From Chlorobiaceae bacterium (GTDB lineage: Bacteria; Bacteroidota; Chlorobiia; Chlorobiales; Chlorobiaceae): DNA of 64,000 bases. The position numbers and the translations under genes were made by a program. Shown one piece after another: positions 7,045 through 49,900 of the stretch; the first letter of the stretch is position 1; each line of letters starts with the position of its first letter. The notes beneath the pieces are model-generated. The model ran no database searches. It was given only the letters and a program-made list of their open reading frames with translations, and was not told the DNA's origin. Where the stretch lies: positions 1 to 64,000 of the forward strand of contig JAAXVR010000010.1 in assembly GCA_013335405.1 (NCBI GenBank), read 5' to 3'.

Positions 7045-8946
7045 ATGCGAATCATACTACAACGGCTTACGCTCAAGCATTTCAAGGGGGTCGAAGATTT
7101 CACCCTGGACGCGAAAGGGCAGAGCATTACGGTTTACGGCCGTAACGGGTCCGGCAAGACGACGCTTGCCGATGCGCTTACCTGGCTCCTGACTGGCAAG
7201 GACACGCAGGGGCAGGCTGATTTCTCCATCAAGACCATCGACCAGAAAGGCGAAGGCCTGCACATGCTGGAGCACAGCGTGGAGGCAGAGTTTTCTTTCG
7301 AGCAGGAGGGAATATGGCGGAGCCTCACGCTGAAAAAGGTTTTTGCCGAAAAGTACACGAAGCGGAAAGGATCACGCGGGGATGAGTTCACCGGGCACGA
7401 GACCACTCATTTCGTGAACAGCGTTCCGAAATCGCAGAAGGAATACCTCTTGGCAGTCAACAGTATTTGCCCGGATGAGGTGTTCCGGCTCATCACCTCT
7501 ATTACCTATTTCAATTCCCTGCACTGGCAGAAGAGGCGGGCATTGCTTCTCGATGTCTGCGGGGATGTGAGCGATGCGGATGTTATCGCCTCGAAGGAAA
7601 CCCTCTCCAACCTGACGGAGCTGCTTGATGGCCTGAGCCTGAGCGATTACATGAAGAAGCTCAAGTCCGAAAGGCCGAAGATCAACGAACAGTTGAACCA
7701 GATTCCCCACCGGATTGACGAGGTGAGGCGGACGAAGCCGAAAGAGGAGGCCTGCCTTCCGCCCCAGGGCCTGGGTTATTCAACGCTTCAGGACAAGATC
7801 CGCAGCCTTCAGCATCAGCGGGCCGCGCGTCTTGCCGGAGATACCAGCGAAATCAGCCAGAAGATCGTTGAGATCAGGCAAGCGATCAACCAGGTCAACG
7901 AGCAGCACAGCAAAACACTCCAGACGGCGAACAAGGCAAAGGCCGAGCTGGAAAGCAAAGTCAGGCGTCTTGAGAACGAACGAACCGCATCAAACATCAT
8001 TCTGGACCGGGAGCGGAGCAGTTTTGAAACGGTTGAGAATGAGCTTGAGCGGCTCCGCACTGAATACCGGGAAATCAGGGATGAAGAGTGCCCGACGGTT
8101 ACGGTGAAATGTCCAAACCCATCGTGCGGAGAGGTATTCACGGTGAAGCTGGACGAGGAACAGTTCAATTCGAGCAAGGCCGCACGGATCAAGAAGAATC
8201 AGGAAACCGGCATAGCGAAAGCCGCCGAACGCAGCCAGATCAATCAGCGAATCAGCAAAGTGGTTGCCGAGATCGAAGCCCTCGAAGTTGAGATCGAAAA
8301 AGCGAAGCAGGAAGTGGTTTCAGTAAAAATTCCGGATGCTCCCGACCATACCGAACGCCTTAGCCAGATAACGGAACTCGAAAAGCAGATCGGGTCCGGC
8401 GGAACTCATGACACGTCCGCCATCGATGCCGAGATCGAGGAAGTCAGCAGGATGATCCGTCTGCATGACGAGGCGACCAACAACCGGAAGAAAGCCGTTG
8501 ATGCCGACCAGCGTACTGAAGAGCTGAAAGCCGAACAGAAACGGCTCGGGCAGGAAATCGACCTGATTGATTCCCGCCTCTGGCTCTGCGAAGAGTTCAT
8601 CAGAACAAAGGTTTCTCTTCTTACCGAGCGGGTCAATGAGAAGTTTTCGCCGCTTCAGTTCAAGCTGTTCAACGTGCAGATCAACGGAGGCCTGGACGAA
8701 ACCTGCGAAACACTGGTGCCTTCGCCGGAAGGGGCTCTGGTGCCATGGAGTGACGTGAATACCGGGCACAAGATTCTGGCCGGCCTGAAGATTGTTCAGG
8801 TCCTCAGCTCTCATTTCGGCAAGTGGGCCCCGCTGTTCATTGACAATGCCGAGTCGCTCACCATGGAGATTCCTGATACCGAGTTCCAGCTTATCAAACT
8901 CATGGCAAACGATCTTGACAACTCTTTAACCGTGGAGGCTGCATGA
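7045..8946 (+). CDS. Rad50/SbcC-like AAA ATPase of the phage recombination module
   Basis: A 633-residue SMC-type ATPase. Walker A is at residues 32-40 (GRNGSGKTT) in an N-terminal half-domain. A long coiled coil runs from about 195 to 525. In its middle is a Cys cluster (ECPTVTVKCPNPSCGEVF) at the place where Rad50 has its zinc hook. The C-terminal half-domain has a Walker B-like strand (APLFIDNAESL). The usual LSGGE signature is degenerate (TGHKILAGL). Rad50/SbcC relatives process DNA ends with a nuclease partner; no SbcD-like gene is present, but an MBL-fold hydrolase lies nearby. It overlaps recT by 4 bases (ATGA), so both act in the same recombination step. Confidence 0.82.
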   Translation: MRIILQRLTLKHFKGVEDFTLDAKGQSITVYGRNGSGKTTLADALTWLLTGKDTQGQADFSIKTIDQKGEGLHMLEHSVEAEFSFEQEGIWRSLTLKKVFAEKYTKRKGSRGDEFTGHETTHFVNSVPKSQKEYLLAVNSICPDEVFRLITSITYFNSLHWQKRRALLLDVCGDVSDADVIASKETLSNLTELLDGLSLSDYMKKLKSERPKINEQLNQIPHRIDEVRRTKPKEEACLPPQGLGYSTLQDKIRSLQHQRAARLAGDTSEISQKIVEIRQAINQVNEQHSKTLQTANKAKAELESKVRRLENERTASNIILDRERSSFETVENELERLRTEYREIRDEECPTVTVKCPNPSCGEVFTVKLDEEQFNSSKAARIKKNQETGIAKAAERSQINQRISKVVAEIEALEVEIEKAKQEVVSVKIPDAPDHTERLSQITELEKQIGSGGTHDTSAIDAEIEEVSRMIRLHDEATNNRKKAVDADQRTEELKAEQKRLGQEIDLIDSRLWLCEEFIRTKVSLLTERVNEKFSPLQFKLFNVQINGGLDETCETLVPSPEGALVPWSDVNTGHKILAGLKIVQVLSSHFGKWAPLFIDNAESLTMEIPDTEFQLIKLMANDLDNSLTVEAA

Positions 8947-9836
8947 CACAGCAGAATATGCAACAGCCGGGAAAGCAGGCTTTACAGAAATCGCCTGCCA
9001 ACATTATGAACAGCCTGCTTAATGGTGAAGCTATGCAGGATTCATTCATACGGGCACTCGGTGACAAGGACAAGGCCGGATTATTTGCCGCCTCTGTTCT
9101 CGAGCTTTACAGTGGTGATGACACGCTCCAGAAATGTGAGCCGGGGCTGGTTATCAAGGAGGCAATGAAGGCGGCGCAGCTTGACCTTCCGCTCAGTAAA
9201 AGCCTCGGCTTCGCATGGGTTGTGCCTCGGTGGAGCGGGAAAATGCAGGCTTTTATACCGCAGTTCCAACCGGGCTGGAAGGGCATTGTTCAGCTTGCGC
9301 AGCGAACAGCGATGTACCGCTATATCAACTGCGGAGTCGTTTACGAAGGAGAGCTGCGAAAGATCAGCAAGCTCACCGGCGAGCTTGACATCGAAGGTGA
9401 AGCCTCCAGCGACAAGATCATCGGGTACTTCGCATATATCCAGCTCACGAACGGCTTTTCCAAGTCGTCATACTGGACAAAAGAGAGAATGACCGCTCAC
9501 GCCTTGAAGTACAATCAGGAGAGCAAGAAGGCGGGCAAGCTGACCGGTAATTGGGCGGAATACTTTGACGAACGAGCGCAGGCCACAGTGCTGAAGCATC
9601 TGATAGCGAAGTTCGGGATTATGTCGATCCAGATGCGGGAAGCTGTCAGTGCTGAAGATCAGACACCGGAAGAGCTTGCCGCTCAGGAGATAGCCTCCAA
9701 TGCGAACACCAACAACATCGACTTTGCGACAGCCGTGGTTGTCGATGACGATGGTGCAAACGTGGACAAGACAACCGGCGAGGTAAAAGAGCCGGTTCAG
9801 GCGGCGGCAGTCCAGGACGACGGCCCCGGCTACTGA
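8943..9836 (+). CDS. recT: RecT-family single-strand annealing protein
   Basis: A 297-residue recombinase that anneals complementary single strands during phage recombination and replication. The RecT core is visible: the start of the domain with CEPGLVIKEAMKAAQLDLPL, then SLGFAWVVPR, then FIPQFQPGWKGIVQLAQRTA and INCGVVYEGE. The acidic C-terminal 60 residues are typically variable. It is translationally coupled to the upstream ATPase. In RecT systems the partner is usually a 5'-3' exonuclease (RecE, YqaJ type); none is seen here, so the ATPase or the MBL-fold protein downstream may fill that role. Confidence 0.93.
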   Translation: MTQQNMQQPGKQALQKSPANIMNSLLNGEAMQDSFIRALGDKDKAGLFAASVLELYSGDDTLQKCEPGLVIKEAMKAAQLDLPLSKSLGFAWVVPRWSGKMQAFIPQFQPGWKGIVQLAQRTAMYRYINCGVVYEGELRKISKLTGELDIEGEASSDKIIGYFAYIQLTNGFSKSSYWTKERMTAHALKYNQESKKAGKLTGNWAEYFDERAQATVLKHLIAKFGIMSIQMREAVSAEDQTPEELAAQEIASNANTNNIDFATAVVVDDDGANVDKTTGEVKEPVQAAAVQDDGPGY

Positions 9837-9915
9837 GGCAAAAGCCCCTGCTCGGGAAGTTGCCGTGTGCTATCGAGGCGGCAGGGGTTCCAGGGTCATA
9901 AAAAAAGGAGGAACC

Positions 9916-10137
9916 ATGAAGTGCAAAGACTGCGGAGCGGAGATCCAATTCATCACGCACGTGAGCACATACAAGAAAATCCCATGTGAGACAGAGCTGA
10001 AGCATGGGAACAGTGAGATTACCCTTGTAACCATTGACGGGTATTTGATCACAAAGGCCGGTCCCAACACGCGAGGGTATGAGCCGCATTGGGGGAACTG
10101 TTCAGGGGCGGAAAAGTTCAGGAGGGAAAAGAAATGA
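9916..10137 (+). CDS. Small Cys-containing phage protein
   Basis: A 73-residue protein starting MKCKDCGAEIQFI after a strong aaaggagg ribosome binding site; the frame is open further upstream, but this start is clearly marked. The CxxC near the N-terminus, a central Cys (KKIPCETEL) and a late GNCSGAEKFRR could form a small zinc ribbon. Similar proteins with Pro-Cys-Glu/Asp after the first knuckle are common in phage early regions. The stop overlaps the next start (ATGA). Confidence 0.65.
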   Translation: MKCKDCGAEIQFITHVSTYKKIPCETELKHGNSEITLVTIDGYLITKAGPNTRGYEPHWGNCSGAEKFRREKK

Positions 10138-10304
10138 GTGGAATACCATGTGAGCTTTGCTGTCGGTCATGCGGCGAATATTTCGATGCTGAAGCTGGAA
10201 GCCATGACTTGATCGAGGTGCATGCTATATGCCCGCATTGTGGGACAGAGGATGACCACCTCATAACAGAGATTGACGAAGAGCCTGGAGGAGGTGAATC
10301 ATGA
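10134..10304 (+). CDS. Small zinc-ribbon-like phage protein
   Basis: A 56-residue protein from the ATG at 10134, chosen because aggaggg lies upstream and it overlaps the previous stop by 4 bases. It carries CELCCRSCGEYF and ICPHCGTED, two CxxC-type knuckles spaced as in a zinc ribbon. Its end overlaps the start of the MBL-fold gene by 4 bases, so the three genes form one coupled set. The function is unknown. Confidence 0.6.
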   Translation: MSGIPCELCCRSCGEYFDAEAGSHDLIEVHAICPHCGTEDDHLITEIDEEPGGGES

Positions 10305-11026
10305 AATTCCGGCCTTACGCATCATCGAGCGAAGGGAACCTGTACTCGTTGAATGACGGGCAAACCTCAATCCTGATCGAGTGTGGTGTGCCCTACAACG
10401 AAATGACCGGGCTTATCGGTTATCCGCCAACCTCATTCATGGCCTGCCTTGTCAGCCATGCACACAAGGACCACAGCAAGAGCGTGAAAGAGCTTGTTCG
10501 GCGGGGCGTTGCGGTTTGCTGTTCAGAAAGCACGGCCAGGGCGACGGGCATCCTCAATCACTCTTTCTCGGTGGTTCTGGAGCCGGAGCGGGAAACGAGG
10601 ATCGGCACCTTTGACGTGATGCCGTTTGAGTGCCAGCACCTCGATGTTGGTTCCGGGACCCGGATTCCCTGTTTCGGCTATCTGATCCGCTCAAGGGATG
10701 ACGGCGAGAGTATGGTTTTCGCAACCGATACCTTCTACCTCCCGGTAAAATTTCCCCCGGTCCAGATATGGGCGGTAGAGTGTAATTGGGCGACTGACCT
10801 GGTGCCTCTTGACTGTCCGTATCGGGACAGGCTATTTCAATCGCACATGGGGCTGCATGTCCTCATCGATGCGCTCAGGCAAAACGATTTGACCAGGTGC
10901 CGGGAAATACACCTCATCCATATCAGCAAGAGCCACGGGGACCCGGAAATGTTCGTCAAGGAGATTGAGGCGGCCACAGGGATTCCAACCTATGCGGCAC
11001 CAAGAAACATCAGGAGGGTTTCGTGA
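10301..11026 (+). CDS. MBL-fold metallo-hydrolase of the recombination module
   Basis: A 241-residue metallo-beta-lactamase fold protein. The N-terminus (YASSSEGNLYSLNDGQTSILIECG) and the metal motif SHAHKDHSK (HxHxDH) define the family; FATDTFYLP supplies the bridging Asp, and the late LIHISKSHGDP a further His. Phage proteins of this type are regularly found beside recT and are thought to act as nucleases or DNA-end processing enzymes, which is not proven here. Given the missing classical exonuclease, it is the best local candidate for RecT's nuclease partner. It overlaps the preceding zinc-ribbon gene by 4 bases. Confidence 0.85.
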   Translation: MKFRPYASSSEGNLYSLNDGQTSILIECGVPYNEMTGLIGYPPTSFMACLVSHAHKDHSKSVKELVRRGVAVCCSESTARATGILNHSFSVVLEPERETRIGTFDVMPFECQHLDVGSGTRIPCFGYLIRSRDDGESMVFATDTFYLPVKFPPVQIWAVECNWATDLVPLDCPYRDRLFQSHMGLHVLIDALRQNDLTRCREIHLIHISKSHGDPEMFVKEIEAATGIPTYAAPRNIRRVS

Positions 11027-11082
11027 GGGAATAATTTTGGGGAATAAACAGTGCTTCAAATAACAGAAAAACAGTTACCACC

Positions 11083-11514
11083 ATGCAGAAAAAAACGTTC
11101 AAGGAGAGCCTGCCTTGCCTGCTGACCGATCAGGAGAAGATCGAGAAGGGGCTTGCATTATCGGGCCTGCTTTCGGAAATCAACTCACTCGAGGTGCAGA
11201 AAAAGTCCATGACGGACCGTTTCAAGAAAGAGATCGAAGGGAAGTCGCTTGAGGTCTCGGATATATCACAGATCATCAGCGACGGGTTCGAGCAGCGTAT
11301 GGTTGAGTGCATCGAGGACCGCGATTACGATAAAATGATGATCCATATAATCCGGACGGATTGCGGTGTGATTGTCCGTTCTCGGGCGATGACGCTTGAC
11401 GAGCGGCAGGAGCCAATGTTCGATGACCAGCCGGAGGCCGAAACCTATACGGTGGTCGATGAGGATGAAGACCGGCATATGGGAAATATCGCTTACCTGG
11501 GTGATGGGAGGTAA
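11083..11514 (+). CDS. Phage protein of unknown function, upstream of rusA
   Basis: A 143-residue acidic protein. The first half is helical and charged (SEINSLEVQKKSMTDRFKKE). The middle has ISDGFEQRMVECIEDRDYDK, and the later part RAMTLDERQEPMFDDQPE precedes an acidic tail. Proteins of this length and layout are common in phage replication regions next to recT and rusA. No motif gives a function. The stop codon is immediately followed by the rusA start. Confidence 0.6.
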   Translation: MQKKTFKESLPCLLTDQEKIEKGLALSGLLSEINSLEVQKKSMTDRFKKEIEGKSLEVSDISQIISDGFEQRMVECIEDRDYDKMMIHIIRTDCGVIVRSRAMTLDERQEPMFDDQPEAETYTVVDEDEDRHMGNIAYLGDGR

Positions 11515-11967
11515 ATGAGCATGGAGCCGATTTCTTTTTTCGTTGCCGGCAAGCCTCTGGCCCTTAAACGCCACCAGACAGTCAGGGTCAAGAGTGGGCG
11601 TTCTATCGAATACGATCCAAGTGCAGGGGATAAGGCCGATTTCCTGGCAATGGTGAGGAGATCGGCTCCAGAAACCCCGTTCACAGGCCCTCTTGAGGTC
11701 AAGATGACATACTTTTTCCCCCGCCCGAAATCCCATTACGGTACGGGGAAAAACGGCACCATTCTGAAGATTTCAGCACCTCATTTCCATACCAGCAAGC
11801 CGGACCTGGACAACCTGGAAAAGTTCATTCTGGACGCGCTGAACGAGGTGTTCTGGAAAGATGATGCTCAGGTATGCAGAGTGGCGAAACAGAAGGTTTA
11901 CACCGATCAAACGCCTGGGGTAATGGTGAGGATAGAATCACTTTCAAACGCAAAAACCAATGGCTGA
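11515..11967 (+). CDS. rusA: RusA-family Holliday junction resolvase
   Basis: A 150-residue endonuclease that resolves Holliday junctions during phage recombination. The RusA signature is clear: SKPDLDNLEKFILDALN followed by VFWKDDAQV, carrying the catalytic Asp cluster (Asp-Leu-Asp-Asn ... Lys-Asp-Asp). The N-terminal FFVAGKPLALKRHQTVR matches the beginning of the fold. Two ATGs lie 6 bases apart; ggaggt favours either. It overlaps the replication initiator by 8 bases. Together with RecT and the SMC-like ATPase it completes a recombination set. Confidence 0.92.
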   Translation: MSMEPISFFVAGKPLALKRHQTVRVKSGRSIEYDPSAGDKADFLAMVRRSAPETPFTGPLEVKMTYFFPRPKSHYGTGKNGTILKISAPHFHTSKPDLDNLEKFILDALNEVFWKDDAQVCRVAKQKVYTDQTPGVMVRIESLSNAKTNG

Positions 11968-12793
11968 GGACAATGGCTTTATCGTGATGCACCGGAAAAT
12001 ATTGGAGTGGGAGTGGTACACGGACACAAACACAAAATGCCTTTTCCTGCATCTCCTGTTGAGAGCAAACCATAAAGGGACGAAATGCAGGGGGGAGTCG
12101 ATAAAGCGGGGACAGGTGTTGACCGGGAGGAAACAATTGGCAATTGAGACAGGTCTTTCAGAACAAGAAATCAGAACCTCGTTAAGCAAGCTGAAATCAA
12201 CCAACGAAATAACCATCAGATCAACCAAACAATACAGTGTCGTAACTATCAATAATTACAATAAATATCAGGACAAGACGCCAGTAAAGCAACCAACGAA
12301 ACAACCAACAAAAACGCCGACGAGCAACCAACAATCAACCAACGATCAACCAACGAGCAACCAACGATCAACCACATACAACAATGATAACAAGATTAAG
12401 AAGAATACTCTCCTTACGGAGAGTAAAGAAGCCGCTCAACCAGAAAGGGTTTTGCCTGCAAATCCTGGGTTCTCTCAGGACTTCATGGACAGGGTTTGGC
12501 CGTTCTACCTGAAGACGGGGAAAGCGAAGTACAAGAACGCGGACTCTCAAAGCGTTGCCTTGCGGACCCTCTACAAGGAAGCTGGCGGCAATGAGCAGGA
12601 AGCGATTGATGCGCTGCAATACGCAGTGGCAAACGGTTATCAAGGGTTTCAGTGGTACTTCAAGCACAAATCAAAAACGAACGGACTCGAACATGGAAAA
12701 CGCAATGGAACGCTCGGATATCAGCAGCCAGTCTCAGCTCAGGATTTGCCAGGCATTATGCAGAGTATCGCCAACGATCCTCGATTCGGGTAA
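11960..12793 (+). CDS. Phage replication initiator (DnaD-like N-terminal wHTH)
   Basis: A 277-residue protein. Residues 1-100 (GFIVMHRKILEWEWY, then GQVLTGRKQLAIETGLSEQE and IRTSLSKLK) form the winged helix of phage replication organisers. The middle is a low-complexity linker rich in Gln, Pro, Thr, Ser and Asn (about residues 106-140), encoded by the 11-bp repeats listed separately. The C-terminal part (VWPFYLKTGKAKYKNADSQS) resembles the end of replication proteins that load helicase. As in the lambda O gene, the repeats inside the gene are the likely binding sites of its own product. The next gene starts 100 bases before this stop in another frame. Confidence 0.8.
   Translation: MAEDNGFIVMHRKILEWEWYTDTNTKCLFLHLLLRANHKGTKCRGESIKRGQVLTGRKQLAIETGLSEQEIRTSLSKLKSTNEITIRSTKQYSVVTINNYNKYQDKTPVKQPTKQPTKTPTSNQQSTNDQPTSNQRSTTYNNDNKIKKNTLLTESKEAAQPERVLPANPGFSQDFMDRVWPFYLKTGKAKYKNADSQSVALRTLYKEAGGNEQEAIDALQYAVANGYQGFQWYFKHKSKTNGLEHGKRNGTLGYQQPVSAQDLPGIMQSIANDPRFG
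12324..12375 (+). repeat. 11-bp iteron array, likely phage origin
   Basis: Four full and one partial tandem copies of an 11-base unit (consensus KCAACCAACGA) start at 12324, 12335, 12346, 12357 and 12368, inside the replication initiator gene. Further scattered copies of CAACCAAC occur at about 12197, 12221, 12289 and 12302. The 11-base period matches one helical turn and is out of phase with codons, so selection at DNA level is likely. By analogy with lambda ori inside O, this is the probable origin. Confidence 0.7.
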
Positions 12794-13250
12794 GGGCCAC
12801 TATCGCCTCTCCATCTACACCGGCGAAAGGAGCAAGAAGGGGATTTCGGAAGTCTCGGCCCGGATCATGAAGGCGTTCCCAGGGTGGAGCCGCGAACAGA
12901 CGGAAATCCTCATGGACCGGTTTGCCGAAAACGGGTTTACCGATCAGCGCATGATGGATGCCGCCAACCACGTCATCGACACCTACGAGGGGTACGGCCG
13001 AGTGCCGAACATCGCCAACTTCATCCAGTTCGACAAACAGTACAGGCTGTTCACGATCCAGCAGAAAAACGCAGCCGTGCATCGTGGAGAATACCAGGAG
13101 CAGGATTTCGCCATCGTCCGTATCGAAGGTGTGTCCGCTTGCCGGTCAGCCGCAGGAAAACGCCCGATGTTTGCCCTCAAGACCGAGATCGAACGATACG
13201 GGCTTACAACGCGCGGGCCTCTTTATCCGGGGCAGCAATGGCCAGATTAA
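12693..13250 (+). CDS. Phage replication-region protein
   Basis: A 185-residue protein taken from the ATG at 12693; the first 101 bases overlap the initiator gene in another frame, and a later start cannot be excluded because no strong ribosome binding site is seen. The recognisable part, KKGISEVSARIMKAFPGWSR and MMDAANHVIDTYEGYGRVP followed by NIANFIQFDKQ, resembles small helical phage proteins that follow the replication initiator. A helicase-loader-like or single-strand DNA role would fit the position, but I cannot name the family. Confidence 0.6.
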   Translation: MENAMERSDISSQSQLRICQALCRVSPTILDSGKGHYRLSIYTGERSKKGISEVSARIMKAFPGWSREQTEILMDRFAENGFTDQRMMDAANHVIDTYEGYGRVPNIANFIQFDKQYRLFTIQQKNAAVHRGEYQEQDFAIVRIEGVSACRSAAGKRPMFALKTEIERYGLTTRGPLYPGQQWPD

Positions 13251-13284
13251 CGCAGTCACTATTCACCCGATCAACCCCCGGAAG

Positions 13285-13674
13285 ATGCTGGAAAAAACGG
13301 AATCAGGGATTTTCAGACAGGCTTGCTACGGAGCGCATACGCTGGCCGAAAAAGAGTCCGTCTCCTGGAGGAAAGGGGAGGACAGAAACACCCGGCACGA
13401 CCGGGAAAAAAAACGCGATTGCGGGTTACGGAGAATCTGCGGTATCGCCTGCATTGTCGAGCATCGGCAACGGTTTCACAACATCGAGATCGTCATTCTC
13501 GGCAAGCACATTTCGCTGTTCGTCAAGACCGAATCCGAAATCGAAAAAGCCATGGATTTCCTGCTGGACTTCATCAACATCGACGACGAGCAAAATGAGA
13601 ACGTCGCATACCACTACCACAACGGCACCGAGGGCGAGAAGATCGACAAGAAGCCCTACGATCCTGCTGACTGA
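13285..13674 (+). CDS. Phage protein of unknown function (129 aa)
   Basis: A 129-residue frame starting MLEKTESGIFRQ. The second half (EIVILGKHISLFVKTESEIE, then AMDFLLDFINIDDEQ) has natural protein composition and marked GC-rich third positions. The first half is basic and overlaps open frames in both other plus-strand phases, so the start is uncertain; a frame beginning at 13238 (MARLTQSLF) could represent the true N-terminus if a frameshift lies within. No family is recognised. It closes the replication block, and a 160-base gap with AT-rich sequence follows. Confidence 0.45.
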   Translation: MLEKTESGIFRQACYGAHTLAEKESVSWRKGEDRNTRHDREKKRDCGLRRICGIACIVEHRQRFHNIEIVILGKHISLFVKTESEIEKAMDFLLDFINIDDEQNENVAYHYHNGTEGEKIDKKPYDPAD

Positions 13675-13835
13675 CACGGTCCGGCCACTTCGTCGGGATT
13701 TTACCAGATTCCGGTATCAGCCCGGTGAAGTGTCTGAAAAACTGAGTGTCAGAAGTGGTGATAAGTTGTTATTAAAAAATCATTTATCTGTTATTTAAAG
13801 TGTAAATTACGTATCTTTAAAAAAAGGACACCGCC

Positions 13836-14237
13836 ATGCACATCTACACCGGGTATTTCGCAAAACTACAGACCTACACCGCCGCCGGACTGGTGCCGGT
13901 CGGCATCGCTCTCAGGCCTCCAGCCTGGTATCACGGAGCCAGCCTCAAAAACCTTGCACCGACAGCCAAAATGCTCTACATGAAGGACTGGGAGTACATC
14001 CCTGCATACCGTGAAGGCGTTCTCGGGTTCCTGCATCCTGAGCAGGTGAAAGATGCCCTGGAGCAGTTCGCAAAGCATGATGAGGACGTGGTGCTTCTCT
14101 GCTTCGAGAAACCGGCTGAGTTCTGTCATCGGCAGCTTGTGGCCAAGTGGCTGAGGGATGCCGGGATCCCCTGCGAAGAGTACGACGAGCACCTTCACCA
14201 GAAACCGAAAGAACCCGAAACCTTAACCCTGTTCTGA
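13836..14237 (+). CDS. DUF488 family protein
   Basis: A 133-residue protein with the DUF488 hallmark CFEKPAEFCHRQLVAKWL (Cys-x-Glu-x5-Cys-His-Arg), preceded by GFLHPEQVKDALEQFAKHDE. DUF488 proteins are small and often sit beside DNA-modification or antirestriction genes; their biochemical role is unclear. A good ribosome binding site (aaaagga) and a fresh AT-rich leader suggest that it starts a new operon with the methyltransferase-like and ParB-like genes, 7 bases downstream and beyond. The combination suggests a role in phage DNA modification or protection. Confidence 0.8.
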   Translation: MHIYTGYFAKLQTYTAAGLVPVGIALRPPAWYHGASLKNLAPTAKMLYMKDWEYIPAYREGVLGFLHPEQVKDALEQFAKHDEDVVLLCFEKPAEFCHRQLVAKWLRDAGIPCEEYDEHLHQKPKEPETLTLF

Positions 14238-14244
14238 TCGAATC

Positions 14245-15564
14245 ATGTTCACCGGTTCAGTTCCCCAAGAAGCCAGGACCCTGTTTCAGGGCCTCATCCA
14301 GTCTATCGGAAAGCGAGATTTCTTCATCGGCTGTTCCGGTAACTTCTCGGTTGACAAGGTGATTGCGCAGCTTGGCTGCAACGTCCACAGCAACGACGTG
14401 AGCCTGTACACGAAGCTGGTTGCCGATATTCTCCTCGAAACCGATACGGAGCTGAAGGTGGTGAACCCGGACCTGAAAACCGTGTTTTCCGGGTGGGTGG
14501 ACAGCCGGTTCAAAAAGCTGGCTATGGTGATGTTCGCCATGAAGCTTTCCAAGTTCGCCGCCCGGAAGAACGACTACGAGCGGATTTTCTACGACGCTTA
14601 CCTCGAAGATGCCCTGGGCTACTATGACCGGACCGTGAAAAAACTCGAAGCCGGAGCACTCGATTTCCGCATCAAGAGCTTTTATTTCGGTGATTTTCTC
14701 GCCTTCCTGAAAAAAAAGCAGGGGCTTGGGATCGGCGTTTCTTTTCCTCCAACCTACAAGGCCGGGTACGAAAAAATCTACCGGTTTGTCGAAGAGAGTT
14801 TCGAGTACGAACGGGCCAGCTACGAGGTGTACGATCCGAAGCGTTCGGAGGAAGTTTTCGGTGCCCTGCTGCGTGAGGACGAGAACATTTTCTGCGGAGA
14901 CCAGTACTTCGAGAGCCTTCAGGACTGCGTTGTCGGCAAGATCATGTTGGGCCCGGGCAAGCACCCGCTGTTCGTGTATTCCTCGGTGCAGACCCCGAAG
15001 AAGTTCTACTACGAGCGGCAGGCTGCGGAGGTGAAAAACACCGTCAGCGTCCTGCCCTACGACTATGAGTTCACCCCGGCAACGAAGATCACGGCCCAGG
15101 TGGTGCCTACGGCGCTGATTACCTACTTCAAGCACTTCTTCATGGGGAGCAAGGTCGATTACAGTGCCGGCGGCGATTTCGGCATCATTTTTTTTGCCGA
15201 CAGCAAAGCGTTCGGGTTCTCTGCATTCTCGAAGCAGCTTTCGACCATGACGCACTGCTACCTGCACAGCGATTTTGTGTGCAGGGCCGACACCCCACGA
15301 CTGAGCAAGCTCCTCATCCAGCTCCTCAAAACGAACGAGGTCAGGCGGATCATCGCCCGGAAGATGGCGCACTATTTCGACGGCCTGAAGACGACGGTGT
15401 ACACCGACAAACCGGTTTCGATGAAGTATCGCGGTGTGTTCAGCCTCGACCGCAGGGACAAGGGAAAGCTCATGTACTCTTGCCTGTTCAGCGAGAAAGG
15501 CCTGGACGATGTGTACGGTGAATGGTTAACGAAAACAGTAAAGAGGCATGAACAACCTGCATGA
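14245..15564 (+). CDS. Putative antirestriction adenine methyltransferase-like protein
   Basis: A 439-residue protein. Residues 27-50 (FIGCSGNFSVDKVIAQLGC then NVHSNDVSLYT) have the look of a methyltransferase SAM-binding loop and following acidic strand. The segment IGVSFPPTYKAGYEKIY sits where amino-methyltransferases carry the DPPY catalytic motif, but Asp is replaced by Phe (FPPTY), so catalysis by the usual mechanism is doubtful. The family is seen in phages next to ParB-like genes and is thought to protect phage DNA against restriction. Its end overlaps the ParB-like gene by 17 bases. The name is by family resemblance only. Confidence 0.65.
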   Translation: MFTGSVPQEARTLFQGLIQSIGKRDFFIGCSGNFSVDKVIAQLGCNVHSNDVSLYTKLVADILLETDTELKVVNPDLKTVFSGWVDSRFKKLAMVMFAMKLSKFAARKNDYERIFYDAYLEDALGYYDRTVKKLEAGALDFRIKSFYFGDFLAFLKKKQGLGIGVSFPPTYKAGYEKIYRFVEESFEYERASYEVYDPKRSEEVFGALLREDENIFCGDQYFESLQDCVVGKIMLGPGKHPLFVYSSVQTPKKFYYERQAAEVKNTVSVLPYDYEFTPATKITAQVVPTALITYFKHFFMGSKVDYSAGGDFGIIFFADSKAFGFSAFSKQLSTMTHCYLHSDFVCRADTPRLSKLLIQLLKTNEVRRIIARKMAHYFDGLKTTVYTDKPVSMKYRGVFSLDRRDKGKLMYSCLFSEKGLDDVYGEWLTKTVKRHEQPA

Positions 15565-16285
15565 GATTCGCGCGAAGCTCGACGACATCAACCAACTGAT
15601 TGCACCATACAAGCTGGCGTATGTAAGCCCGAAAGACGAATGCCTGTTCCTCGACAAGAACGCGCATTACATGGAGAAGGAAACCCTCGAACGCCTCACC
15701 CACAACATTTCCCAGGACGGGTTTCTTTCGCAGTTACCGTTCGGTATGAAGCGGCAGAGTGACGGCAAGTTTCTCATTCTCTCTGGCAACCATAGGCTGA
15801 AGGCCTCGATCAAGGCCGGGCTGGAATTCATCCTCATCCTCTACATCGACGAGGTTGACAAGAGCACGCAGATAGCCTATCAGCTTTCGCATAACGCCCT
15901 GGTCGGCAAGGATGACATGCGCATGCTGAAGGAGATTTACCGCGAGATCGAGACGGTTGAAGCCATGGAGTTCAGCGGGTTGAACGGCCTGAACTTCCTC
16001 GATTTCGAGAAGATCAATGCCCCGGCGATCAATGACGCAGATATTGAGCTGACCGAGATGAAGTTCCTCTTCATCCAGAGCCGGGCCAATGAGGTCAAGC
16101 AGGTTCTGGAGGTCCTCGAGAAGATGAAGATCGGTGATGACTGTGCCCTGGTTGTCGGTGATTTCGAACCGTACATCGAGCTGATGACGGCCATAAAGAA
16201 GGCATATGGCGTGAAGAGCGTATCGGTGGCCTTCAACAAGATGGTGGAGATTTGTGCTGAAAAGTTGAGAGAACTCGAACAGTGA
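15548..16285 (+). CDS. ParB N-terminal-like (ParB/Srx) protein
   Basis: A 245-residue protein. Residues 55-110 contain LTHNISQDGFLSQLPFG, then GKFLILSGNHRLKASIKAGL, the ParB/Srx-fold motif (Gly-x-His-Arg) that binds nucleotide. The ParB helix-turn-helix is not evident, so it is not a partition protein of normal build. Stand-alone phage versions accompany methyltransferases and terminase genes and have been proposed to act in DNA modification or packaging. It overlaps the methyltransferase-like gene and ends 1 base before terS, which links this trio to packaging. Confidence 0.8.
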   Translation: MNNLHEIRAKLDDINQLIAPYKLAYVSPKDECLFLDKNAHYMEKETLERLTHNISQDGFLSQLPFGMKRQSDGKFLILSGNHRLKASIKAGLEFILILYIDEVDKSTQIAYQLSHNALVGKDDMRMLKEIYREIETVEAMEFSGLNGLNFLDFEKINAPAINDADIELTEMKFLFIQSRANEVKQVLEVLEKMKIGDDCALVVGDFEPYIELMTAIKKAYGVKSVSVAFNKMVEICAEKLRELEQ

Positions 16286-16286
16286 A

Positions 16287-16802
16287 ATGGCAGGAAGAGG
16301 AAGGCCCCCTGAGAACCTCTACGAGAAGTGGGTTACAGGAAACGAGGAAATTGTCAAGTCGGCTTGCCGGGAAGGAGCTGACCTTAAAGGCCTTGCCGCT
16401 CTGCTCGGCTGTGGCCTTACCACCGTCAAGAACCTTAAAAGCAAGTTTCCGGAATTTGCCGAACTCATCAGGATCGACAGCAAGAAAGCGAACCTTCAGG
16501 TTCAGTCAGCACTTTTCAAACGTGCGATAGGCTATGAGTACGAAGAGACGGTTTCAAAGGTGGTCGTGGGCAAGGATGGCTCCGGCCAGCAGACGTTTGT
16601 GGAGAAGCGCAAACGCCATGTGCCCCCGGACCCTGTGGCAGCGATATTCTGGCTGAAGAACCGGGAACCGGAAGCCTGGAGAGACAGGCGGGAAGTCAAC
16701 ATCACGGACGATCCCGGAGAAAAAGAGATGACACGGAAAGAGCTTGTCGAGGAGGCAAAAAAGATCGGTATGAGTGAAGAAGAAATGTTCCCTGATGACT
16801 GA
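16287..16802 (+). CDS. terS: Terminase small subunit
   Basis: A 171-residue DNA-recognition subunit of the packaging motor. The N-terminus GRGRPPENLYEKWV and a helix-turn-helix (LKGLAALLGCGLTTVKNLK) are typical, and the C-terminal half has HVPPDPVAAIFWLKNREPEA followed by WRDRRE, the most conserved block of this small-subunit family. It overlaps the large subunit gene by 8 bases. The gene starts 2 bases after the ParB-like stop without a strong Shine-Dalgarno sequence, so it probably relies on coupling. Confidence 0.9.
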   Translation: MAGRGRPPENLYEKWVTGNEEIVKSACREGADLKGLAALLGCGLTTVKNLKSKFPEFAELIRIDSKKANLQVQSALFKRAIGYEYEETVSKVVVGKDGSGQQTFVEKRKRHVPPDPVAAIFWLKNREPEAWRDRREVNITDDPGEKEMTRKELVEEAKKIGMSEEEMFPDD

Positions 16803-18228
16803 AGAGGAAAAATTGAGGATAGCAGCCAAGCGGCTCGATTTAAGACGTAAGGCAATGATATTGCAGGCTCGAACAAGCTTTCGGATTTATCGCCGCCTCA
16901 TTAATCCGAGGCTGAAAGATGGGTGGTTTCGTCGCGCTATGGAGATTGAGCTTGAACATTGGTGGGATGATTTCAAAGCTGGAAAAAGGCCAGTGCTTTT
17001 ACTTTCGACGCCTCCTCAGTTTGGAAAAAGTATTCTGATCATTGACTTCATCTCATGGATTTCGGGTAAGGACCCGGCACTCAGGACCATTTTTGCAAGC
17101 TTCAGTGAGCGGCTCGGTGTTCGCGCAAACCTTCGGTTGCAGCGGATTTTCGACACTCCACTTTATGCGAAAGTATTTCCGAAAACCAGCATCAATACCG
17201 CGAATGCTGTTGCCATTTCTGGCCAGCACTTGCGTAACCGTGAAATCCTTGAGTTTGTCGATCAAGACGGTTATTTCCGCAATACCACCGTTGGCGGCCC
17301 GGTAACTGGAGAAAGTCTTGATATCGGCATCATTGATGATCCGGTCAAAGGTCGTGAAGAGGCGAATAGTGAAACCATGCGTGAAAAAGTATGGGATTGG
17401 TTCACTGACGATTTCAGTACCAGGTTCAGTGATTTTGCTGGCATGATCCTGATTATGACGCGCTGGCATGTTGACGATCTTGCGGGTCGTATCATTGAGA
17501 CCAACAAGAGCGCAAAAACGCTGGTGTTTAAAGCGATTGCCGAAGACGATGAAGAACATCGAAAAGCTGGTGAACCGCTATTCCCTGAGCTTAAGAGTAT
17601 CGAATTTCTCCTCAATAAAAAGTCGATGATGCGGCTGGCGAGCTGGTTTGCCCTCTATCAGGGTTCACCGATTATTGAAGGGGGCGATATGATCATGGCC
17701 GAGCGCATCCAGGTTGTCGACAGGATTCCCGGCAAGATCATCAAGAGCGTCCGGTATTGGGACAAGGCCGGAACGGAAGACGGCGGCGCATACTCGGCGG
17801 GTGTCCTCTTGCACCAGCTCGATACGGGCAAGTTCGTCATTGCAGCCGTTATCCGTGGCCAGTGGAGTTCTGGCAGGCGTGAACTGACGATGAGGCAGAC
17901 GGCAGTTATCGACACGGTGAGGGTGCCGGTATGGGTTGAGCAGGAACCCGGCAGCGGCGGTAAGGAGTCGGCTGAGAACACCGTTACCAAAACGCTTGTC
18001 GGGTTCTCGGTTTTTGTCGACAAGGTGAGCGGCGACAAGGTAACGAGGGCAGAGCCGTTTGCGGCACAGGTCGAGTTCGGCAACGTGGTGATGCTTCGCG
18101 CGGAATGGAACAAGGAGTACCTGGACGAAGCGAGGATGTTCCCGAACGGCAAGTACAAGGATCAGATCGACGCTACAAGCGGCGCATTCAACAAGTTGGT
18201 AGGCGATAGAATCTTAATTCTGGAATAG
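16795..18228 (+). CDS. terL: Terminase large subunit
   Basis: A 477-residue packaging ATPase/nuclease. The start is the ATG at 16795 inside the end of terS; a frame start at 16774 is less likely. The ATPase part has a deviant Walker A (LSTPPQFGKS) and a Walker B-like strand (IGIIDDPVKGREE), plus a coupling motif (ILIMTRWHVDDLAGR). The C-terminal RNase H-like nuclease begins near YWDKAGTEDGGAYSAGVL with its first catalytic Asp. Base composition changes inside the gene: hand-counted 60-base lines give 43-48% GC before about 17,600 and 60-67% after about 17,760. This suggests a recombinant gene joined near the domain boundary. Confidence 0.93.
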   Translation: MTEEEKLRIAAKRLDLRRKAMILQARTSFRIYRRLINPRLKDGWFRRAMEIELEHWWDDFKAGKRPVLLLSTPPQFGKSILIIDFISWISGKDPALRTIFASFSERLGVRANLRLQRIFDTPLYAKVFPKTSINTANAVAISGQHLRNREILEFVDQDGYFRNTTVGGPVTGESLDIGIIDDPVKGREEANSETMREKVWDWFTDDFSTRFSDFAGMILIMTRWHVDDLAGRIIETNKSAKTLVFKAIAEDDEEHRKAGEPLFPELKSIEFLLNKKSMMRLASWFALYQGSPIIEGGDMIMAERIQVVDRIPGKIIKSVRYWDKAGTEDGGAYSAGVLLHQLDTGKFVIAAVIRGQWSSGRRELTMRQTAVIDTVRVPVWVEQEPGSGGKESAENTVTKTLVGFSVFVDKVSGDKVTRAEPFAAQVEFGNVVMLRAEWNKEYLDEARMFPNGKYKDQIDATSGAFNKLVGDRILILE

Positions 18229-18232
18229 TGAC

Positions 18233-19546
18233 ATGAAAATCAGGTGGCCGTTTACTCGAAAAGACAGCGTCATCCCGGAGATCAAAAGCCTGACGCTCCC
18301 TGACCTGCTGAAAATGAGCGTAGGAGAGGCGAAATGGTCGTCATGGACAAAAGAGTCGTGGTGGGATCATGAAACGGCTGTAAAGCTCGGTTATGAGGCT
18401 TCAGGCGTGCTTTTCGCCTGCATAGACAAACGGGCAAAAGCCGTTGCCTCTGTTCCCTGGATCGTCGAAACCAAAGCAGGCGAGGAGTGGCAGCCTCTTC
18501 CTGCCCATCCCCTGCAAAACCTTGTCGACAGGCCGAACAAGGACATGAGCTTTTCGGAGCTGATGATTTATGCCGTCCAGTTCCTCGACCTCTCAGGCAA
18601 TGCGCTGTTTCTCGAGATACGGACCGGTAACGAGAAGTTGCCCTCGGAACTCTGGCCGGTTTCCCCGGGCGGTGTCGAGATCATCACCGGGTTTCCCGAA
18701 TCCCTCATCGGTTCGTACAAGATTCCGCAGAAGAACGGATCGAAAAAGGATGTTCAGGCGCAGGACGTTATCCATTTGGCTTATCCGAACCCGCTGGATT
18801 TCCTCTATGGATCCCCGTTGCTCAGGCCGGGAGCCCGGGCGGTCGACATTGACCGGGAGTCCTCGACATTCCAGAAAACGAGCCTTGAGAACCGGGGTGT
18901 TTCCGACATCGCCGTTATCCTGGACCCGATGACGACGCAGGATCAATACGATCAGATCAAGAAGAAGTATGAGGAACGCCAGGCAGGGGCCAGAAATGCA
19001 AGGAAGCCACTTTTCACGAACAAGGACATCAAGCAGTTGAACCAGTCACCGGTGGAGCTGGATTTCTCGAACTCGAGAGCGCGGGTGTGGGAGGAAATCT
19101 GCGCTGTGTTCGGAGTTCCACCGCCAATGATCGGACTGTATGAACGGGCAACCCTGGCCAACATTCAGGAAGCGCGGAAGATTTTCTGGCTTGACACGGT
19201 TATTCCGCTGCTTGACCTGATTTCCTGCCAGCTCAATAACCAGCTTACGTTTGAGTTCGGAACCAATATCCGGCTTCGGTACGACCTGTCAGGTGTTGAG
19301 GCCCTGAAAGAGAACAGGACCGATAAGCTGAACGATGCGAAAACGCTCTGGTCCATGGGGATGCCGTTCGACAACGTCAACGAGTATCTCGAGCTCGGGG
19401 CAGACTCATTCGAGGGCAGTGACGTGGGGTACTTGCCGGCGGGAGTGCTGCCTACCAACATGGACTTGAGCGGCGGTGCAACCGGCACGAATGGCATGAA
19501 CGATGTAGCGGCAAAGCTCGGATATGGCGCAGCTCCTGGGAAATAA
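18233..19546 (+). CDS. Phage portal protein (HK97 family)
   Basis: A 437-residue subunit of the portal ring through which DNA enters the head. It shows the HK97-portal pattern: FACIDKRAKAVASVPWIVE at the start, LPAHPLQNLVDRPNKDMSF, then DVIHLAYPNPLDFLYGSPLL and a late VFGVPPPMIGLYERATLAN with EARKIFWLDTVIPLLDLI. Length is normal for the family. It starts 4 bases after terL and overlaps the head-morphogenesis gene by 23 bases, the standard packaging order. Confidence 0.93.
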   Translation: MKIRWPFTRKDSVIPEIKSLTLPDLLKMSVGEAKWSSWTKESWWDHETAVKLGYEASGVLFACIDKRAKAVASVPWIVETKAGEEWQPLPAHPLQNLVDRPNKDMSFSELMIYAVQFLDLSGNALFLEIRTGNEKLPSELWPVSPGGVEIITGFPESLIGSYKIPQKNGSKKDVQAQDVIHLAYPNPLDFLYGSPLLRPGARAVDIDRESSTFQKTSLENRGVSDIAVILDPMTTQDQYDQIKKKYEERQAGARNARKPLFTNKDIKQLNQSPVELDFSNSRARVWEEICAVFGVPPPMIGLYERATLANIQEARKIFWLDTVIPLLDLISCQLNNQLTFEFGTNIRLRYDLSGVEALKENRTDKLNDAKTLWSMGMPFDNVNEYLELGADSFEGSDVGYLPAGVLPTNMDLSGGATGTNGMNDVAAKLGYGAAPGK

Positions 19547-20424: not shown

Positions 20425-21474
20425 ATGCCTGAGAAAAAATCTGAGGACAACAATACGTCAAAATCAAATTTCTTCAAAAAAATCATAACTTCGGAACTTA
20501 AAAAAGCATTATTCTTATTTGTTTTTGTTGTTACAACATCTTTATCTGTTTGGGGATTGTATTATCTATTTTTTGAAGAAAATCGTCCAAAAATAAATCT
20601 TCCTATACCTCTTCCTATACCTCTTCATATACCAGTAGAAATAATTTTAGTGTCATTTGTTATATCAATAATATTTTATTCTGCTTTATTGTTTGTACGT
20701 GAAGTAAATGGTGGGAATTTTAAATTTCATGAAGAAGATGACTTGGCCTTTGCGGAAAAAATTATTAAGAAAAGAAATAGTGCGTTAAAGAGTATTGGAC
20801 GTGATTTTAATAACACAGATAACGCTGATGTAAGTGGTCTTAAGGAAAAAGAAATGTTTCTTTTGACTGAAGAGCAAATGTTTTCTTTGTCTATTACAGA
20901 TTTGTTTGTTGAAAAAGCTCAAGCCGTTCTTTCAAGGAGAGGTAATTTTTTAATAAGAGCAGGAGCGTTCACTGTATTTAGTGCTATCATGCTATTGATA
21001 TTTGGCTTTTTTGTGGCAATATTTAGTCAGCCATTATTAGATATTCTTCAAAAATATATCAATTCGGAATTGAAAATAAATATTAAATTTGACTCAGTAC
21101 AAACGGCGCTTCTCGGAAATAAACGCTCAGATGGTCCATGGGTGTTATTGCTTTATTATTTAATCAAAACACTTGGGATTACTGCTTATATCTATATTTG
21201 TGTGAAATTGTTGTTGTCATTAGCTAGGTCGTTTTTCCATGAAGGATTAAGTCTTTTTGAGAGGAGACATGCTTTAAGATTTGGCAGGATGTATATTTAT
21301 CTTAAAAAAGGAAATGTAAGTGAGAAATGGTTGGAAAGGTTTTTCCAGTGGAATAAAGAGACGAAAACTTCATTTCTTGATATGAAGCCGGAGGTTTTAA
21401 CTGAAACATTGATGCATAAGCTGTTTGGTGTATTCCCTGATATTATTCAAAGTTTAAAAAACAAATCTAATTAA
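20425..21474 (+). CDS. AT-rich membrane protein, cargo gene
   Basis: A 349-residue protein of no recognised family. Four hydrophobic segments are visible: about 28-49 (ALFLFVFVVTTSLSVWGLYY), 69-91 (IILVSFVISIIFYSALLFV), 178-205 (AFTVFSAIMLLIFGFFVAIF) and 244-267 (VLLLYYLIKTLGITAYIYI). Between segments two and three lies a charged cytosolic-looking domain, and the C-terminal 80 residues are soluble (SLFERRHALRFGRMYIYLKK). One 60-base line hand-counted inside it has 20% GC against 60% in the gene before. It is inserted between head genes, which is typical of a moron. An exclusion or defence role is possible but unsupported by motifs. Confidence 0.6.
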   Translation: MPEKKSEDNNTSKSNFFKKIITSELKKALFLFVFVVTTSLSVWGLYYLFFEENRPKINLPIPLPIPLHIPVEIILVSFVISIIFYSALLFVREVNGGNFKFHEEDDLAFAEKIIKKRNSALKSIGRDFNNTDNADVSGLKEKEMFLLTEEQMFSLSITDLFVEKAQAVLSRRGNFLIRAGAFTVFSAIMLLIFGFFVAIFSQPLLDILQKYINSELKINIKFDSVQTALLGNKRSDGPWVLLLYYLIKTLGITAYIYICVKLLLSLARSFFHEGLSLFERRHALRFGRMYIYLKKGNVSEKWLERFFQWNKETKTSFLDMKPEVLTETLMHKLFGVFPDIIQSLKNKSN

Positions 21475-46966: not shown

Positions 46967-49900
46967 ATGGGTGCTGATAATTCTGTTCCGGTCGCGAGGG
47001 TATTCGAAGTCAGCGGGAAGGTCTGGGTCAAGGATAAAAACGGAGCCAGGCATCAACTTCGTAAAGGGGAAACTGTCTGTCAGGGCGATAGTATCGTTAC
47101 TGAGGCAGGCAGCCATGCAGAACTGCAGGATATGCATGGCCATATTCTCAGAATTTCCGGCAGCAGGGAGATAATTCTTGCGCCCGGACTGTTTGTCACA
47201 TCGGAAAGCGATGCCTACCATCTGATCCTTCCGCCGGATGAGCCGGCAGATGAAACGTCAAATCACCATATTCCGGAGCCGAAACCGCCGTACACGCAGG
47301 AAGGGCATTGTTTCGTGCGTGCGGAACGGCTGCAGGAGTCGGTGAGTCCCCCTCATTACCGGTTCTTGTCATATACCGGAACCTATGTACCATCGATTGA
47401 TGGAAGAAATGCCGGAAACGACGCTTTCCTTGGCGGGCGGGCCACCACCGACGAAAGGATCGTGATGTCCTTCAGTCCGTTGACGTTCACCCATGAGTTT
47501 GACGCGCACGATCTGAGGGAGTTCGGTCCCTCATTCGGGGATGACGATGTCAATCATGTTCCTGAAGCAACTGACGACAGAGGGATCGTTGTGGAAGGAT
47601 CGAACTTGATTTCCGGCAATATGCTCGATAACGATATCGACGGGACCGGAACGTCGAAGGTGTATGAAATAGCCTATATCCCTGAAGGCGGTGGTCTGCC
47701 GGTTACTGTCGCTGTACCGGTCGGAGGATCGGTCACGGTCGATACCCGGTATGGCGAACTGACTGTTTACAGTGACGGATCCTGGAGCTATACCAGTGAC
47801 CCTGAGGAAGTTCACGGGACGGACAATGTCCTGAAGGATTCCATTCAATACACGATTATCGATATCGACGGGGATAAATCGTCAGCGAAGCTGACGATCG
47901 ATGTCCTCGATACCGCGCCTCAAATAACTTCACCGCAGAATTCTCCAGTCTGTGAGAATGATTTTTCTGACGGTACCAGCCCGGATGATTCGGCTCTGAC
48001 GGTGGGCGGTCCACTTGGCGTCATTCCAGGTGAGGATCCGATCGATACCTATTTTACAGAGCAAAGCGCTCCGACGGGATTAACGTCGAACGGTCAGGCT
48101 GTAAACTACTCTATCAGCCAGGATGGATATACGCTCATCGCATATACGGGTAGTTTTCCGGAAGGTGAGGCTCCCTCTGAAGAGCAGCGGGTATTTATTG
48201 TGACGATTGATGATCCAAAGGATTCCACAGGATCACAGCGTTACCAGTTCACGCTGATCAATCAGATAGATCATCCTGATGATGATGGAGAAAATAAAAA
48301 AGACTTAACCTTCAATTTTCAGGTCAGAGATACCAACGAAGGTAATCTGGATACTGCAAATGGATCGTTTACGGTTTCCGTTATCGATGACGTCGAGAAG
48401 GTGACAAGTCCTGTGAAGGTGGAAGTTGACGAGGACGATCTTGCGGACGGGACGAGCCCTGACCCGACGAAGCTGACGGTGGGCGGGGCGCTGGGCGTGA
48501 TCGTCGATGCGGACGATATCGTAAGCACGAAGTTCACGGTACCGGAAGGGGCGAGCGGTCTGACGTCAAACGGTGAGACGGTGAACTACGATGTCAGTGA
48601 CGACGGCAGGACGCTGACGGCATATACGGGAAGTGACCCGTCCGCCAATAAAGTGTTCACGGTAATCATCACGGAAACCGACCCGAACAATCCGCAATAC
48701 AGCTTTACGCTGCAGAACCAGCTTGATCAAGAGCCTGCCGACGGACAGAACAAGCTGCCGTTGAGCTTCGGCTACGAAGTGACCGACAGGGACGGCGACA
48801 AGGCGTCGGGCGAGATCACTGTCGATGTGCGGGACGATGTCGAAAGGGTGACGAGTCCGGCGAAAGTGAGGGTTGACGAAGATGACCTGCCGGACGGAAC
48901 GAGTCCCAATAATTCGGAGCTGACGGTTGGGGGAGCACTGGGCGTGATCGTCGATGCGGACGATATCGTAAGCACGAAGTTCACGGTATCGGAAGGGGCG
49001 AGCGGTCTGACGTCATACGGTGAGACGGTGAACTATGATGTCAGTGACGACGGGCGGACGCTGACGGCCTATACGGGAAGTGACCCGTCCGCCAATAAAG
49101 TGTTCACGGTACTCATCACGGAAACCGACCCGAACAATCCGCAATACAGCTTCACGCTGCAGCAGCAGCTGGATCATGCGGATGCCGACGGGCAGAACAA
49201 GTTGCCGTTGAGCTTCGGCTACGAAGTGACCGACAGGGACGGCGACAAGGCGTCGGGCGAGATCAAGGTTGATGTTATCGATGACGTCGAGAAGGTGACA
49301 AGTCCTGTGAAGGTGGAAGTTGACGAGGACGATCTTGCGGACGGGACGAGCCCTGACCCGACGAAGCTGACGGTAGGCGGGGCGCTGGGAGCGATCGTCG
49401 ATGCGGACGATATCGTAAGCACGAAGTTCACGGTATCGGAAGGGGCGAGCGGTCTGACGTCAAACGGTGAGACGGTGAACTACGATGTCAGTGACGACGG
49501 CAGGACGCTGACAGCCTATACGGGCGGTAATTCTGACGATCCGGCAAGTCAGGTATTCACGGTAGTGATATTGGAAAGCGATTCATACAGTCCGGATTCA
49601 CCCGGCTACAGCTTCACGCTGCAGCAGCAGCTGGATCATGCGGATGCCGACGGGCAGAACAAGCTGCCGTTGAGCTTCGGTTACGAAGTGACAGACTTCG
49701 ACGGCGACAAGGCATCGGGCGAAATCAAGGTTGATGTGCGGGACGACGTGCCTAAAGCGAAAAATGATGCAACGCAAAGTGTTGATGAAGGAAGCAACAG
49801 TATTGCTTCTCAAGGCAATCCGACGCGGAATCTCCTGAACAATGATGTAACTGGAGCTGATGACCCGATCAGGATAACGGAATTATCCTATGTGAATGAA

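Follow-up and report, generated by a model that had tools for sequence, protein, structure and literature searches.

The window, a 64-kb stretch of DNA, contains a prophage, for which genes for an integrase (171-929), a terminase (16774-18228) and a portal protein (18233-19546) were identified, together with recombination genes encoding an SbcC-like protein (7045-8946), RecT (8943-9836) and RusA (11515-11967). A metallo-beta-lactamase-fold hydrolase (phrog_392) is encoded at 10301-11026, inside the replication and recombination block. Two neighbouring conserved phage genes occupy 14245-16285, the first belonging to phrog_7858 (unknown function, E 5e-111) and the second to phrog_7405, with ParB-like nuclease similarity. 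Other repeats in the window were a 447-bp unit present three times in tandem at 48389-49749 (84% matches, Tandem Repeats Finder score 1894), which is probably a repeated domain of a phage structural protein, and a 12-bp unit present three times at 20598-20633, TCTTCCTATACC, within an ORF for a membrane-like protein. An Rfam scan of the window yielded a tRNA as its sole match.

The gene at 11960-12793 had been named a replication initiator in the first-pass annotation of this DNA, and the assignment was backed by several searches. PHROG 2514 (DnaD-like helicase loader) matched initiator residues 4-155 with E 2.6e-29, phrog_345 and 678, both described as 'replication initiation O-like', also matched the gene, and the N-terminal domain gave a profile match to gp18 of Salmonella phage L (hhalign probability 99, E 9.7e-18, 31% identity over 99 residues). 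The gene was linked by tblastn to the O genes of HK022, HK620 and Sf6. The N-terminal domain was modelled with AlphaFold2 at a mean pLDDT of 86.5, with helices at residues 57-64 and 68-80 and, after them, a beta hairpin at 84-97. The best Foldseek matches of the modelled domain were winged-helix regulators, with weak E values, and a PDB sequence search returned one weak match of the GntR/FadR type (E 0.015). For the gene at 12693-13247, directly 3' of the initiator, all PHROG matches were sub-threshold (replisome organizer, E 0.09) and pointed to no clear family; no helicase or helicase-loader gene adjoining the initiator was recognised in this search. The neighbouring gene is a candidate helicase loader. 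The features of the initiator locus are listed in Table 1.

Table 1. Features in and around the replication initiator gene, in window positions.
Feature	Position	Strand	Remarks
Replication initiator gene, O-like / DnaD-like helicase loader	11960..12793	+	277 aa; PHROG, hhalign, tblastn
Winged-helix DNA-binding domain, N-terminal, residues 6-102	11975..12265	+	AlphaFold2 model
Specificity cassette (recognition helix, wing, iterons)	12100..12375	.	exchanged as a unit in comparison with L002
Arg57 codon, specificity residue 1, start of HTH helix 2	12128..12130	+	covaries with iteron column 5 (C/A)
Gln69 codon, specificity residue 2, start of predicted recognition helix	12164..12166	+	covaries with iteron column 2 (A/G)
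Wing site 1, TCAACCAAC	12197..12205	+	codons 80-82, S-T-N; silent bases of 80/81 track residues 69/57
Wing site 2, ATAACCATC	12209..12217	+	codons 84-86; 84 and 85 obey the code, p 4e-5 and 3e-22
Wing site 3, TCAACCAAA	12221..12229	+	codons 88-90; 88 and 89 obey the code, p 4e-16 and 1.5e-13
AT-rich stretch between both site clusters	12230..12285	.	GC about 0.30; possible unwinding region
Linker iteron 1, AAGCAACCAAC	12287..12297	+	
Linker iteron 2, AAACAACCAAC	12299..12309	+	12 bp from iteron 1
Linker iteron 3, GAGCAACCAAC	12322..12332	+	in Tandem Repeats Finder call
Linker iteron 4, AATCAACCAAC	12333..12343	+	in Tandem Repeats Finder call
Linker iteron 5, GATCAACCAAC	12344..12354	+	in Tandem Repeats Finder call
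Linker iteron 6, GAGCAACCAAC	12355..12365	+	in Tandem Repeats Finder call
Linker iteron 7, last, end degenerate, GATCAACCACA	12366..12376	+	in Tandem Repeats Finder call
AT-rich flank 3' of the array	about 12376..12420	.	GC 0.37; possible unwinding region
C-terminal part of the initiator, presumed helicase-recruiting domain	12400..12793	+	outside the exchanged cassette

An array of 11-bp units (12-bp upstream) with the core AACCAAC lies inside the initiator gene at 12287-12375, in the DNA coding for the linker. Tandem Repeats Finder called 12320-12374 with a period of 11, 5.0 copies, 88% matches and a score of 89, and the five tandem units seen in the first-pass annotation were confirmed. The best 44-bp self-match at lag 11 in the whole window was 39/44, at 12320; 20 simulated 64-kb sequences (order-1 Markov) reached 30/44 at most. 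The lag-11 match of the linker was reached by 16 of 20 000 synonymous recodings in which the protein and the codon usage of the gene were kept. The period had also been described as out of codon phase; this was borne out, and successive tandem units consequently step through frames 0, 2, 1, 0, 2. Additional units at 12287 and 12299 extend the array by 12-bp and about 23-bp steps. When the host genome (2.47 Mb) was searched with a two-unit motif allowing up to 3 mismatches, the array in the window was the sole occurrence. The scattered copies mentioned in the first-pass annotation are real: AATCAACCAAC is found at 12195 and GATCAACCAAA at 12219, with the weaker ATAACCATC in between at 12209, and they form a cluster of three sites with 12-bp spacing (12197-12229) in DNA coding for the wing of the domain. 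The GC minimum of the gene falls at 12220-12279 (GC 0.30). Among 154 relatives, the AT content of the 20-40 bp past the array was on average 14 points above that of the gene, and the AT enrichment of the array flanks is modest.

Homologs were collected among named phages, in whole genomes and on viral contigs, and the family turned up in genomes of Bacteroidota, Chlorobi, Proteobacteria, Firmicutes and other hosts. When 52 non-redundant linkers were compared with synonymous shuffles, the greatest excess was at lag 11 (z 14.7), followed by lags 4 (z 12.3), 22 (z 10.7) and 7 (z 9.5); lags 4 and 7 reflect spacings within the unit. A motif-free search found units in most genes, with steps of 11 (109) and 12 (48). 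A chain search, with a unit detector seeded with the general core and weighting A/G and A/C equally, located 3-9 chained units in 154/170 distinct genes with steps of 11 (367) and 12 (149); the same units were obtained by the motif-free search. All three reading frames were covered by units in 134 of the 154 genes with arrays, and the position of the array directly after the winged helix was constant among relatives. The chain search found no clear array of this core in the remaining 16/170. Different units occur in some of the GC-rich Chlorobium relatives that have Lys69 (L084, AAAGGGCAATC; L088). Since 61% of synonymous shuffles still yielded at least three units, unit count alone is weak evidence, and it is the letters of the units, rather than their number, that decide between selection on DNA and selection on protein.

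The general core, R-A-C-M-A-A-C, spans columns 2 to 8 of the iteron; its first letter falls in column 2 and its fourth in column 5. In the 154 genes, with few exceptions, Gln69 was accompanied by A and Arg69 or Lys69 by G at the first core letter, while Arg57 was accompanied by C and other residues by A at the fourth. In an unbiased mutual-information scan of 93 residues against 11 iteron columns in 90 genes less than 80% alike, residue 69 and column 2 formed the strongest of the 1023 pairs (z 21.6), and residue 57 and column 5 the second strongest (z 18.3). A hold-out set of 85 previously unused genes of the same family was scored wherever at least three units were present. Residue 69 was paired as Q-A in 37/37 genes, R-G in 18/20 and K-G in 4/4, and residue 57 as R-C in 33/33 and non-R-A in 35/37. 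Two initiator residues predict iteron letters across more than 200 related phages. Rules for Ser69, Asp69 and Asn69 were also sought and not adopted, as cases were too few or inconsistent. The homologous gene of Lactobacillus phage phiAT3 (L268, gene 1489-2286) carries 11-bp units, GTCAATCAANN, of a type outside the two-letter code, and near-perfect 11-bp units, AACAAATCAAC, are present in the initiator linker of Staphylococcus phage SP5 (L266, gene 1495-2382).

The contribution of shared descent was assessed on a tree built from about 91 columns, leaving out columns 57 and 69. Among path-disjoint pairs differing at residue 69, the first core letter was concordant in 27/29 and opposite in 0; among those differing at residue 57, the fourth core letter was concordant in 23/28 and opposite in 1. 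Cross controls on the path-disjoint pairs (residue 69 against the fourth letter, residue 57 against the first) were null. Restriction to well-supported branches left only five independent pairs for each trait, with complete or near-complete concordance (p 0.06). When synonymous third bases were scanned throughout the N-terminal part, residue 57 was strongly associated only with codons 81, 85 and 89 and residue 69 only with codons 80, 84 and 88, which places three wing sites 12 bp apart. The classic base preferences are those of glutamine for adenine and arginine for guanine, and residues 69 and 57 may physically touch the two covarying bases.

Comparison with close relatives gave evidence for exchange of the domain together with its sites. 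The window and the phage L002 are 94.5% identical over 8961-15275, with a single deep dip in identity (0.53-0.88) at about 12100-12375 and a return to 98-100% for several hundred bases past 12400. L002 encodes Arg instead of Gln at residue 69 and its units are GACCGACCAAC, against GATCAACCAAC in the window, a change from A-type to G-type. Four further pairs resemble this one: L085/L087, L186/L190, Sf6/HK620 and L014/L017. Identity was back to 95-100% shortly past the array in the first three of these, and divergence was higher throughout in L014/L017. The flanks of Sf6 and HK620 are 97.7% identical, while the domain and repeats differ.

These data make it very likely that the initiator binds iterons within its own gene, in the DNA coding for the wing and the linker, and opens an origin there. 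The winged-helix domain would bind the 11-bp iterons, core RACMAAC, with Arg57 and Gln69 each reading one base pair of every core. The seven linker sites and three wing sites, at approximately one per helical turn, would align several initiators on one face of the DNA. The AT-rich flanks (12220-12279 and about 12376-12420) could then open and the C-terminal domain, by analogy with O-type initiators, could bring in the replicative helicase; the opening and helicase steps are modelled on lambda O and related initiators. As they are adjacent, domain and iterons could be exchanged or re-evolved jointly by phages, which would generate new origin specificities.

The covariation shows the behaviour of a binding site and not origin use as such, and the sites might instead form an operator, at which the initiator would block transcription of its own gene and limit its own level, replication starting elsewhere. 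Protein bound within a transcribed gene would also be a roadblock. However, known phage origins are laid out in this way, as arrays of four to nine phased sites that have AT-rich flanks and lie within the gene of an O-type initiator, and the database records of the homologs in Sf6, HK620 and phage L annotate an origin here. An operator in place of an origin is therefore improbable; autoregulation may operate alongside origin function.

The repeats lie in a transcribed gene and their strand orientation is always the same, as would be expected if they acted in the mRNA, through structure or control of translation. Against this, T is almost absent from the coding strand of the units (fraction 0.07), leaving A, C and G; the units are poorly self-complementary, and their letters track two residues located at the putative DNA-reading helices, in keeping with the textbook preferences of Gln for A and Arg for G. 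A role in the mRNA is consequently very improbable.

We attach even less weight to selection on the linker protein, in which a flexible Q/P/T/N tether would be maintained and the DNA repeat would be a by-product of a repeated peptide. The motif QPTxNQQxTTNKN is common among relatives and the protein alone yields part of the lag-11 signal, but silent third positions followed the two specificity residues, 57 and 69, with hardly an exception, and protein-level selection of the linker was rejected on these grounds. Where the first core letter was a synonymous third base, A outnumbered G by 121 to 1 in Q69 genes and G outnumbered A by 46 to 2 in R/K69 genes, against an A share elsewhere in those genes of 76% and 66% respectively. 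At Thr codons ending in the fourth core letter, ACC was used 97 times and ACA 9 times by R57 genes, against 4 and 94 times by other genes. The codons of the folded wing were also locked to the code; in S-T-N wings the Ser80 codon was TCA in 67/67 genes with Q69 and TCG in 13/13 with R/K69. A single base change, which by frame converts Gln to Arg, converts Asn to Asp or is silent, was nevertheless made in all copies. The proposal of the first-pass annotation that the DNA rather than the protein is selected was thus strongly supported, as the letters of relatives shift in all copies and frames, silent sites included. It had also pointed to the comparison of homologous genes: there the 11-bp repeat was retained with changed letters, and a linker kept with loss of the DNA repeat was not seen among the homologs. 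Least credible is a neutral array, for although replication slippage can create tandem arrays of short units, the 11/12-bp period was kept in 154/170 distinct genes, changes of the letters go along with changes of the protein, the array holds a constant position just past the winged helix, and the wing sites lie outside any context of tandem slippage.

We consider it likely that a very widespread initiator family obeys the code in which residues 69 and 57 set two iteron letters, that a domain-plus-origin cassette of ~270 bp is swapped or re-tuned between phages, and that the wing and linker protein is largely shaped by the sites that it encodes. Most temperate-phage origins are unmapped, and if the code holds, both origin and specificity could be read from the protein sequence. 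The code would predict which prophages are able to activate or obstruct one another's origins, and the family offers ready-made pairs with which base recognition by winged-helix proteins could be tested. It also supplies many natural experiments in which sites and the protein that binds them are altered jointly with no unfit intermediate, because protein and sites can arrive in one recombination event. Neither the residue-base code nor the wing sites nor any exchange of the cassette was found reported in the literature searched, which excluded most subscription papers, and all three appear to be undescribed so far.

The first-pass annotation had likened the arrangement to lambda O and its origin. 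The principle stands: in lambda, as in the window, repeated initiator-binding sites lie inside the initiator gene beside AT-rich DNA. Strict membership of the lambda O family was rejected, however, as hhalign gave no profile match between lambda O and the N-terminal domain of the window (probability 0.5%), and the annotated lambda iterons are 18 bp long and spaced by 20-24 bp, whereas the units in the window are 11 bp and spaced by 11-12 bp. The nearer kin are O genes of the phage L, Sf6 and HK620 type, which already have 11-bp repeats. ORF20 of Staphylococcus phage 80alpha is likewise an initiator gene, and since its deletion was not complemented in trans, its origin is probably embedded in it (PMC5499656). 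It was considered as a member of the same family and discarded, since ORF20 showed no profile match to the window family and no 11-bp period. SP5, of the same genus, has 11-bp units, whereas the initiator gene of 80alpha, with its annotated origin, is unrelated.

Gene 18 of Salmonella phage L contains six 11-bp repeats, TGTCCAACGGA, which have been called the likely origin (PMC8022706). Its N-terminal domain is homologous to that of the window and its repeats also follow directly after the domain; it differs in having two three-unit blocks separated by a gap, other unit letters and Asn at the position of residue 69, and a DnaB-like helicase gene adjoins it. Gene 43 of Sf6 and gene O of HK620 also share the domain, with 11-bp repeats at the same place, and differ from the window in unit letters, in enterobacterial hosts and in an adjoining DnaB-like helicase gene. 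In the records of Sf6, HK620 and phage L, a rep_origin is annotated inside the homologous gene, right after the same domain. Because phage L gene 18 is homologous and the origins of all three phages are annotated there, the gene in the window is, on sequence grounds, an O-type initiator with a putative intragenic iteron origin of the phage L, Sf6 and HK620 kind, in a different phylum.
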